Shown: piece by piece, positions 50,653-53,925 of the stretch
Position numbering within the stretch: position 1 is the stretch's first letter
How the letters are laid out: each line of letters starts with the position of its first letter
From: Hydrogenimonas urashimensis
GTDB taxonomy: Bacteria; Campylobacterota; Campylobacteria; Campylobacterales; Hydrogenimonadaceae
Length of the DNA: 64,000 nt
Assembly: GCF_016593255.1 (NCBI RefSeq)
Contig: NZ_AP023212.1
Coordinates: 310,001-374,000, forward strand
Direction of reading: 5' to 3'
Translations under genes and position numbers: made by a program
The notes under the pieces: model-generated
The model's database searches: none
What the model was told of the DNA's origin: nothing
Seen by the model: the letters and a program-made list of their open reading frames with translations, nothing else

Positions 50653-52113
50653 ATGGCAAGAGTTGTCGTACTTGGCGCCGGTGTCTCAGGACATACAGCC
50701 GCCACTTTTTTGCGGGACTGGCTCGGGTCCGAGCATGAAGTCGTTGTCGTTACACCCAACAGCAAATGGAACTGGATCCCTTCCAATATCTGGGTGGGCT
50801 GCGGCGAAATGGAAAAAGAAGATGTTGTTTTCGAACTGGCTCCTGTTTATGAAAAGGCAGGAATCGACTATCGTCAGGCCAAAGCGGTTTCGATTCATCC
50901 CGAAGGCGGAGAGAACGAGGAGAAGCCCTACGTCACAATCGAATATACCGGTCAGGGCAAAGAGGGTCAGAGCGAGACCGTAACATACGACTACCTGATC
51001 AATGCGACTGGTCCGAAGCTCAATTTTGGTGCGACGGAAGGTCTTGGACCTGACAACGGCTACACCGTTTCAGTCTGTACGGCCGATCATGCAGTGCATG
51101 CCAATGAGGAGCTCCAGAAATGCATCGCCAAAATGAAAGCGGGTGAGCGCCAGAAAATCGTAATCGGAACCGGTCACGGTATGTGTACGTGCCAGGGTGC
51201 CGCATTCGAATATGTCTTTAACGTCGAGTTCGAACTCAACAAAGCCGGTGTCCGTGACATGGCGGACATTACGTGGATTTCAAACGAATCTTTCCTGGGA
51301 GACTTTGGAATCGGCGGTCTGCACCTCAAACGTGGAGGTTATGCGGCCAGTTCACGACTCTTTGCCGAATCCCTCTACGCAGAAAAGGGTATTCCCTGGG
51401 TCATTGGTGCGCACGTCAACAAAGTCGAGCCCGGAAAAATCCATTACGAACAGCTTGACGGAAGCACGGGCGAACTCGAATTCGATTTCTCCATGCTCAT
51501 TCCTCCTTTTGCTGGTGTCGGCCTGAAAGCTTATGCCAAAGACGGAAGCGATATGACTGACAAACTCTTCGCTCCCAACGGCTTCCTGAAAGTCGATGCC
51601 GACTACACCGCCAAACCCTACGAAGAGTGGAAAGCGAGTGACTGGCCGAGAACCTATCAAAACCCTGATTATCCGAACATTTTCGCCGTCGGTATCGCAT
51701 TTGCTCCGCCGCATCTTATCTCCAAGCCGATGAAAAGCCCCAACGGCACACCGATCAACCCGACTCCGCCGAGAACAGGTATGCCTTCGGGTATCATCGG
51801 CAAAACGGTCGCCATGTCCATCCGTGACATGATCACAAAAGGTGCCGACAAACCGACACATCATGCATCAATGGCCGAAATGGGTGCAGCATGTGTTGCT
51901 TCGGCGGGTAAAGACCCGATCCACGGTATGGCAGCGGCACTGACTGTCTATCCTGTCGTTCCCGATTTTGACAAATATCCCGGTATCGGACGCGACCTCG
52001 ATTATACATTCGGTGAAATCGGACTGGCTGGCCACTGGATTAAACATATCCTGCATCATATGTTTATCTACAAAGCGAAACTTAAGCCAGGCTGGACACT
52101 CATTCCCGAATAA
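50653..52113 (+). CDS. sqr: Sulfide:quinone oxidoreductase
   Basis: A 486-residue flavoprotein of the SQR/flavocytochrome c sulfide dehydrogenase group, oxidising sulfide and reducing the quinone pool at the membrane. FAD motifs are VVVLGAGVSGHTAATFL and YLINATGPKLNFG; Cys residues in SVCTADHAVH, GMCTCQGAAFEY and AACVASAGKD are candidate redox Cys. I start at ATG 50653 (GAAGGAG 7 nt upstream). The C-terminus (HHMFIYKAKLKPGW) suits membrane attachment. A 54-residue membrane peptide gene follows by 21 nt. Confidence 0.9.
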   Translation: MARVVVLGAGVSGHTAATFLRDWLGSEHEVVVVTPNSKWNWIPSNIWVGCGEMEKEDVVFELAPVYEKAGIDYRQAKAVSIHPEGGENEEKPYVTIEYTGQGKEGQSETVTYDYLINATGPKLNFGATEGLGPDNGYTVSVCTADHAVHANEELQKCIAKMKAGERQKIVIGTGHGMCTCQGAAFEYVFNVEFELNKAGVRDMADITWISNESFLGDFGIGGLHLKRGGYAASSRLFAESLYAEKGIPWVIGAHVNKVEPGKIHYEQLDGSTGELEFDFSMLIPPFAGVGLKAYAKDGSDMTDKLFAPNGFLKVDADYTAKPYEEWKASDWPRTYQNPDYPNIFAVGIAFAPPHLISKPMKSPNGTPINPTPPRTGMPSGIIGKTVAMSIRDMITKGADKPTHHASMAEMGAACVASAGKDPIHGMAAALTVYPVVPDFDKYPGIGRDLDYTFGEIGLAGHWIKHILHHMFIYKAKLKPGWTLIPE

Positions 52114-52134: not shown

Positions 52135-52299
52135 ATGGAACATATCGAAAAGAACATCAAACCTTACGAACCGAGTTTTACGACGATGGTGCCTACCAAC
52201 GTCGTACGTTTTTTCAGAACCTGCCTGATTTGGCAGTTCATCCGCTTTATCATCATCAACATCAAAATGCTTCAGGTGGTTCGCAAGAGCCACCACTGA
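52135..52299 (+). CDS. 54-residue membrane-associated peptide next to sqr
   Basis: This short gene starts MEHIEKNIKPYEPSFTTMV and has one hydrophobic or amphipathic helix with aromatic residues (about 22-46, NVVRFFRTCLIWQFIRFIII and onward), ending basic (VVRKSHH). AAGGAG lies 7 nt before ATG 52135. It is 21 nt after sqr and is followed by a strong hairpin, so it is translated with sqr. It might anchor the oxidoreductase at the membrane or be a small accessory subunit. No family is recognised. Confidence 0.78.
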   Translation: MEHIEKNIKPYEPSFTTMVPTNVVRFFRTCLIWQFIRFIIINIKMLQVVRKSHH

Positions 52300-52325: not shown

Positions 52326-52368
52326 TTCCCCAAAAACATTTTCATATCATTTCCAAAAGGGTTTTCAA

Positions 52369-53196
52369 ATGTCCGTCAAAAAAGAGCTTATCGTCTATCC
52401 TGACGAACGAATCCATATTCCGTGCAGCGACGTAAGAAACTTTGACGATACTCTTTTTGAAGTGATCGAAATGATGAAAGAGGTCATCGAAGAGAACGAT
52501 GCCGAGGGATTGGCAGCTATTCAGACCGGTTATCCCTATAATATTGTCATCGTCAGGTTGGATAACGGTTCGTATCTGGAACTGATCAATCCGCGAATTT
52601 TGCGATACGAAGGAAAAACGACCGCCAAAGAGAAGACACTGTACTATCCGGATATCGAAATAGAGGTGCCCCGTTACGAAAAAATAAAACTGATCTATGA
52701 AGATCGATACGGCAAACAACACCATATGGAAGCGGAAGGCAAACTCGCGCGGGTTATTCAGCGAAAAATCGATTATACTTTCGGCGGAACCTTCCTTACG
52801 AAAGTCAAAAAAGAGATTAAAGAAGCGGTCGAAAAAGCGTTGGCGGAGAACGGTCTGGTACCGGAAGTCGAACTTTGCCCCACTTTTTCCAAACGGGTCT
52901 ATTTCCTCAGCGTCGCCGACAAACTTCTCTTTTTTATGTTCCTGACACTTTTTGCCAAACTTTTCAATCCTTCTATTGAAACCCTGGCAACCTTCTACAC
53001 TTTCGACAAAATAGGGGGATTGGCTGTCGTTTTTTTGATGATCGGCTATTTCATCTATGGTCGGTGGGAAGCGAAAAAGTACACAAGCTGCACCAGCTGT
53101 CAGGTGGGCAATATGATCGGCTCCATGGCAAAACGCCTTATCGCCGCTATCGTCATCGGCACCGCCACCTATTTTCTCGTCAATCCGGCCATGTAA
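52369..53196 (+). CDS. Membrane-anchored degenerate peptide deformylase
   Basis: A 275-residue protein. Residues 1-170 align with peptide deformylase: the start VYPDERI, the first motif EGLAAIQTG with its Gln, and LELINPRIL are kept. The second motif (normally EGCLS) is KEKTLYYP, and the third (HExxDH) is QRKIDYTF, so the metal ligands Cys, His and His and the catalytic Glu are all replaced. Residues about 185-275 contain three membrane segments and a CTSC pair in a loop. It cannot be a normal deformylase; a binding or scaffold role on the cytoplasmic face is more likely. It lies just after the sqr operon (AAAAGG before the ATG). Confidence 0.85.
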   Translation: MSVKKELIVYPDERIHIPCSDVRNFDDTLFEVIEMMKEVIEENDAEGLAAIQTGYPYNIVIVRLDNGSYLELINPRILRYEGKTTAKEKTLYYPDIEIEVPRYEKIKLIYEDRYGKQHHMEAEGKLARVIQRKIDYTFGGTFLTKVKKEIKEAVEKALAENGLVPEVELCPTFSKRVYFLSVADKLLFFMFLTLFAKLFNPSIETLATFYTFDKIGGLAVVFLMIGYFIYGRWEAKKYTSCTSCQVGNMIGSMAKRLIAAIVIGTATYFLVNPAM

Positions 53197-53322
53197 CGAT
53201 GGGTCTTTTTTCGAGTTGGCTGTGGCCATCTCTTCCAAGCATTGCCTATTCTATAATGCTGAGGCCGTACACGGTTTTTTGATATGTCCAAATTTTTTCA
53301 TGCCTCTTTAAACCTACTGCAC

Positions 53323-53335
53323 TACAATGGTTTCA
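53323..53335 (+). promoter_or_regulatory. -10 box placing transcription at the msrA ATG
   Basis: TACAAT (53323-53328) is followed by 6 nt and ATG 53335, with no ribosome site between. This is the same layout as at 27880-27892. Confidence 0.45.
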
Positions 53336-53925
53336 TGAAGCATATCACAACACTCCTGGCCATTTTATGGCTGGGTATACAAGGATTCGCCATGGAACCT
53401 AAGTATGAAAAAGCGACGCTGGGCGGCGGCTGTTTCTGGTGCCTGGAAGCGGTTTTCGAACAGGTCAAAGGGGTCGTAGATGTCGTAAGTGGCTATGCCG
53501 GAGGCCATGTGGAAAAACCGACCTACCAGCAGGTCTGCACCGGGTCCACGGGCCATGCCGAAGTGGTGCAGATCACCTACGATCCCTCCATCGTCAGTTA
53601 CGAAGCGCTGTTGGATATTTTCTGGACCATTCACGACCCCACGACGCTCAACCGCCAGGGCGCCGATGTGGGTACCCAATACCGTTCCGTCATCTTCTAC
53701 CATAATGAAAACCAAAAGGAGATGGCACAACGATCCAAAGCCCAGGCCCAACAACGTTTCAATGCCCCCATCGTCACCGCAATCGCACCGTTGGACAAGT
53801 TCTGGCCCGCCGAGGCGTACCATCAGGACTATTTCAGAAAAAATCCCTCCCATGGATACTGTCACGCGGTCGTGGCACCCAAAGTGAAGAAGTTCAAAAC
53901 GCATTTCAAGGAGATGGCCAAATGA
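53335..53925 (+). CDS. msrA: Exported peptide-methionine (S)-S-oxide reductase
   Basis: A 196-residue MsrA with a signal peptide (MKHITTLLAILWLGIQGFA), repairing oxidised methionine in periplasmic proteins. The catalytic Cys is in LGGGCFWCLEAVFE; GHAEVVQITYDP and the late HGYC are family blocks. ATG 53335 gives the signal peptide at residue 1; the open frame extends 17 codons upstream without a ribosome site. Its stop overlaps the small RHH gene as ATGA. Confidence 0.92.
   Translation: MKHITTLLAILWLGIQGFAMEPKYEKATLGGGCFWCLEAVFEQVKGVVDVVSGYAGGHVEKPTYQQVCTGSTGHAEVVQITYDPSIVSYEALLDIFWTIHDPTTLNRQGADVGTQYRSVIFYHNENQKEMAQRSKAQAQQRFNAPIVTAIAPLDKFWPAEAYHQDYFRKNPSHGYCHAVVAPKVKKFKTHFKEMAK

Follow-up and report, generated by a model that had tools for sequence, protein, structure and literature searches.

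A membrane-bound pseudo-peptide deformylase encoded beside sqr, a candidate partner of sulfide:quinone reductase in Campylobacterota

Results

Organization of the locus

The window analysed here, a stretch of 64,000 nucleotides, comes from a Hydrogenimonas-like member of the Campylobacterota whose complete genome measures 2.3 Mb. The gene under study encodes a protein in which a domain of the peptide deformylase (PDF) family is followed by a C-terminal membrane module, and it lies downstream of sqr, the gene for sulfide:quinone reductase (SQR), on the same strand (Table 1). In the original prediction, the gene had been placed directly behind sqr. It does keep company with sqr, but it is not its immediate neighbour, because a conserved small ORF lies between the two. 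Neither this small gene nor the third conserved cysteine of the pseudo-PDF, C170, had been noted in that prediction.

Table 1. Positions of the genes and features of the sqr cassette in the window
Feature	Position	Strand	Basis
sqr, sulfide:quinone reductase, 486 aa, starts MARVVVLGAG, no apparent signal peptide	50653..52113	+	phmmer to 3hyv, E 1.5e-43
Small protein, 54 aa, probably membrane-associated, RTCLIWQFIRFIIINIKML and C-terminal KSHH	52135..52299	+	Conserved beside this sqr type; no Pfam/NCBIfam match
Pseudo-peptide-deformylase membrane protein, 275 aa, ATG start	52369..53196	+	ORF, Pfam, alignment, model
Pseudo-PDF domain, residues 5-149	52381..52815	+	PF01327 Pep_deformylase, E 2.3e-33
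Remnant of motif II EGCL, E88-K-T90-L; catalytic Cys replaced by Thr90, Glu88 invariant in the pseudo-PDF family	52630..52641	+	Alignment
Remnant of motif III QHExDH, Q131-R-K-I-D-Y136	52759..52776	+	Alignment
Third conserved cysteine, C170-P171, just N-terminal of the first membrane segment	52876..52881	+	C170 in 105/107 homologues
Membrane module, three predicted membrane segments	52891..53193	+	Hydrophobicity; stand-alone form in one genome (L171)
C241-T-S-C244, loop joining segments 2 and 3, predicted cytoplasmic face	53089..53100	+	107/107 homologues; loop charge
MsrA with signal-like start, 3' of the cassette	53284-53925	+	

On the opposite strand, an ORF of 298 aa (52342-53238, minus strand) spans the pseudo-PDF gene from end to end and exceeds the pseudo-PDF ORF in length, and it could be picked wrongly by gene callers that favour long ORFs. 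It was rejected as the real gene, since nothing supports it and since the pseudo-PDF reading frame is conserved and has the dN/dS values given below; conservation among homologues and dN/dS likewise led us to reject the reading of 52369-53196 as a pseudogene. The msrA gene had been proposed to share in a common sulfur or redox theme. It follows the cassette in the window's genus only, Hydrogenimonas, and is present after sqr there even where the pseudo-PDF gene is missing, so that we do not regard it as a member of the system.

A deformylase fold with a replaced and conserved active site

The 275-aa protein has the PDF fold that had been predicted for it, as indicated by its match to PF01327 (Table 1) and by an AlphaFold2 model which matches the crystal structures of several PDFs, among them that of H. 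pylori (2ew5, E 6e-11), with TM-scores of about 0.6-0.74 when normalized to the target length. The model, built from an alignment of 15 sequences, is of moderate confidence (mean pLDDT 72), and the regions around the cysteines (156-173 and 240-244) have a pLDDT below 50. The score against the NCBIfam equivalog model TIGR00079 is 85.3 bits, under the cut-off of 103.95 bits. By sequence, the best solved relative is the B. cereus PDF 1ws0 (E 4.6e-23). In the alignment with this enzyme, EGCLSFP stands opposite EKTLYYP and QHEIDH opposite QRKIDY, and all four active-site residues of PDF (Cys, His, Glu, and His) are replaced; the exchange of Cys for Thr and of HExDH for RKIDY had been read correctly from the window. 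A separate canonical PDF of 175 aa, with EGCLS and HEMDH, is encoded in the same genome (C1:1630240) and shares 36% identity with the pseudo-PDF.

To describe the family, 107 distinct full-length homologues from Campylobacterota were collected from 299 genomes of the order and 14 named contigs. None of the four catalytic residues is kept in 100 of them, and one is kept in the other 7; the loss of the ligands is therefore a property of the whole family. In motif I (GxGLAAxQ), the L, A, and Q are mostly retained, the first glycine is gone, and the second is often alanine. In motif II (EGCLS), the glutamate is retained, and nearly all homologues have T, D, or S at the position of the metal-binding cysteine. 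In place of motif III (HExxH), homologues have RKxDY or a similar sequence, and both histidines never occur together.

The positions of the former active site are nevertheless far from variable in comparison with the rest of the domain. Among the non-redundant sequences, E88 and D135 are invariant, and R132 (75/86), K133 (71/86), and Y92 (67/86) are found in most; the corresponding entropies are 0 for E88 and D135, 0.64 for R132, 0.96 for Y92, and 0.97 for K133, against a domain median of 1.84. Because these positions are more conserved than the median of the domain, the former catalytic pocket (E88, QRKxDY) is remodelled and conserved, not decayed. Pairwise dN/dS within the genus ranges from 0.04 to 0.24 in the few pairs for which it could be computed, which indicates purifying selection on the gene. 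Its motifs II and III disqualify it as a deformylase enzyme, and the protein is best described as a PDF-family pseudoenzyme and a candidate partner of SQR.

The membrane module and its cysteine triad

Three C-terminal membrane segments with a CTSC loop had been proposed, and three hydrophobic segments are indeed found near residues 177-196, 212-231, and 256-275, the latter two flanking C241-T-S-C244. The membrane part is present in all 107 full-length homologues and colinear in more than 100, and for this reason its explanation as a frame error was rejected. Both loop cysteines are conserved without exception (107/107), and C170 is present in all homologues except two. Averaged over the family, the charge is +1.8 before segment 1, -0.3 in the loop that joins segments 1 and 2, and +2.0 in the cysteine loop; given these values, the positive-inside rule predicts that the pseudo-PDF domain and the cysteine loop are cytoplasmic.

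Searches of Pfam and NCBIfam with the membrane module yielded no known family beyond a sub-threshold match to the FeoB-associated Cys-rich membrane protein family (PF12669), and profile searches of the PDB gave nothing convincing. Of 19 rows, 7 matched PF12669 weakly, at E 0.0072 at best, the window protein scoring 14.2-14.6 bits against a cut-off of 27. The two have in common a membrane helix followed by a cysteine-containing tail, but the window protein lies below the family cut-off and only one segment is matched, and the resemblance is probably an architectural likeness.

One genome (G143) encodes the membrane module as a stand-alone protein of 98 aa with CTGC and without a PDF domain. Its gene is the third, after sqr and the small gene, and lies 199-495 past the sqr stop codon (L171; G143:C59:16565-16843). 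As this module occurs alone behind sqr and the small gene, the cysteine-bearing membrane module may be the core that is tied to SQR, with the PDF part added to it, or lost in this one genome.

The sqr cassette and its small gene

The order sqr, small gene, pseudo-PDF gene, on one strand and within 1.5 kb, was found at 86 fetched loci representing 81 distinct SQR sequences. The cassette spans many families, and the genes outside it vary between loci. The small protein of about 55 aa is encoded beside this type of sqr at nearly every locus examined, whether the pseudo-PDF is present or absent. A scan of the intergenic gaps of the cassette for promoters and terminators gave results no better than those for shuffled sequence. 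The pseudo-PDF gene does not adjoin sqr in one genome group (f6 and some f5), in G102/G159, and in the case of second copies in f16; in one unlinked genome group, in which sqr and the pseudo-PDF gene are apart, both genes are still present. Second copies away from sqr were seen in some f16 genomes (L072, L079, L082, and L084). In f15 genomes (L169 and L170), no pseudo-PDF gene is present, and behind sqr and the small gene come a thioredoxin-like gene, one for a protein of 126 aa, and one resembling thioredoxin reductase.

The SQR begins right at an FAD-binding Rossmann motif (PF07992), has no apparent signal peptide and no TAT signal, and contains three redox cysteines that align with those of the A. 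aeolicus SQR 3hyv and are conserved in all 81 linked homologues. Its closest solved relatives are the A. aeolicus and A. ferrooxidans enzymes. According to a review, most sequenced Epsilonproteobacteria have SQRs of types II, IV, and VI, type II SQRs of this group bear TAT motifs, and types I and IV form one clade (PMC4584964). We tentatively assign the SQR of the window to type IV.

Co-occurrence and co-divergence with SQR

According to a hand tally of the search output, 94 genomes carry the long-form pseudo-PDF, and 92 of these also have this SQR, compared with 65 of 205 genomes without the pseudo-PDF. The two genomes that have the pseudo-PDF and not this SQR are G151 (80% complete) and G259 (57% complete). 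Since 65 genomes have the SQR and the small protein without the pseudo-PDF, the pseudo-PDF is not required by every SQR of this type.

Distances between SQR sequences and between pseudo-PDF sequences are correlated (Mantel r 0.81, a value reached by none of 999 permutations), a correlation that would equally be expected from plain vertical inheritance of both genes. The mean distance is 0.62 for the pseudo-PDF versus 0.23 for SQR, the pseudo-PDF being the faster-evolving protein. When the presence of the pseudo-PDF was mapped on the SQR tree, seven changes were obtained, indicating that it was gained or lost several times. Some columns of the SQR alignment track the presence of the pseudo-PDF, but they follow the tree.

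Discussion

Taken together, the family-wide loss of the ligands, the conserved membrane segments and CxxC, and the company of sqr make a role in sulfide physiology, as first suggested for this gene, well founded. On balance, we favour the interpretation that the pseudo-PDF protein is a dedicated membrane partner of one SQR type in Campylobacterota. The partnership with SQR is well supported by genomics; the chemistry and the docking are inferred. SQR, the small protein of about 55 aa, and the pseudo-PDF probably form one physical complex on the inner membrane. The membrane module would be its working core, with C170, C241, and C244 predicted on the cytoplasmic face. In the pseudo-PDF domain, metal and catalysis have given way to conserved polar residues (E88, T/S/D90, Y92, R132, and K133); that this site serves for docking, binding a stretch of peptide from SQR or from the small protein, is about as likely as not. 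Thiol or sulfur chemistry by the cysteine triad is a plausible but somewhat doubtful element, in which the triad would either take sulfane sulfur from SQR or set its redox state. The most specific version, a sulfur-handling subunit whose cytoplasmic cysteine triad gets sulfane sulfur or electrons from SQR while the dead PDF clamps SQR and the 55-aa peptide, we put forward only tentatively.

The main rival to a dedicated partner is a factor for assembly or anchoring, which would help SQR to fold, bring it to the correct membrane face or fix it there, the cysteines then forming a structural or metal site instead of carrying out sulfur chemistry. An SQR that starts at its Rossmann motif and lacks a signal peptide would suit such a factor; the type II SQRs of these bacteria have a TAT motif instead (PMC4584964), and three cysteines could bind metal. 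However, 65 SQR-positive genomes do without the pseudo-PDF. In addition, we know of no link of PDF folds to protein export, and we judge this explanation possible, though unlikely. A co-translational role is improbable. Such a factor would dock at the ribosomal tunnel exit and recruit to the membrane those ribosomes that translate SQR or the small protein; the C-terminal helix of the E. coli PDF binds the ribosome, and the pseudo-PDF retains the fold, followed in the model by a predicted helix at 148-160, but across the family the region 143-170 lacks a basic character, its net charge averaging +0.3 (range -3 to +4). Least probable of all, to the point of being hardly credible, is a deformylase that has kept its activity through an altered mechanism, a possibility raised for certain type 3 PDFs. 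Activity is known from some PDFs whose motifs are altered, for example the T. brucei enzyme (PMC12690207), but here all metal ligands and the catalytic glutamate are gone in 100 of 107 homologues, the rest keep at most one of the four residues, and the genome already has a canonical PDF.

The pseudo-PDF protein can be compared with several known systems. It resembles canonical PDF (PF01327, TIGR00079) in its fold, its N-terminal YP, its NP, and the positions of Glu88, Arg102, Gln131, and Asp135; unlike canonical PDF, it has lost the active-site Cys/His/Glu/His, sits under the equivalog cut-off, and has gained a membrane module with a cysteine triad. Type 3 PDFs are accessory forms, weak or inactive, in which motifs I and II are altered (PMC12690207). 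Like them, the pseudo-PDF is a second copy with altered motifs I and II in a genome with a canonical PDF, but, judged by their description, it differs in having also lost motif III, in being membrane-bound, and in being tied to sqr. The account of type 3 PDFs does not mention Campylobacter, sulfide, or transmembrane (PMC12690207). With type I/IV SQRs and their gene neighbourhoods, the present locus shares a neighbouring enzyme with three redox cysteines. In the Sulfurimonas and Sulfurovum papers searched, deformylase is not mentioned, and the literature searched contains neither a deformylase near sqr nor a membrane-bound dead PDF with a cysteine triad tied to sqr.

Campylobacterota are dominant at many vents and in many sulfidic sediments, and sulfide enters their metabolism through SQR, an enzyme that is taken to act alone. 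If this SQR does have two unrecognised membrane partners, activity values obtained without them may be an incomplete measure, and the reason why one genome holds several SQR types would become testable. The pseudo-PDF also clearly exemplifies how an essential enzyme, once dead, can be turned into a membrane protein. In public annotation, such proteins are called peptide deformylase, as in Sulfurovum mangrovi, and can thereby mislead surveys of accessory deformylases; the small protein, which has no match in Pfam or NCBIfam, is annotated as 'hypothetical protein' in the same organism. Sulfurovum mangrovi was also the single match in a search of plasmids, its copy lying on a 396 kb plasmid record (L206, 3995-4810), where the annotation gives two 'peptide deformylase' genes in the same frame, as though a stop codon divided them.
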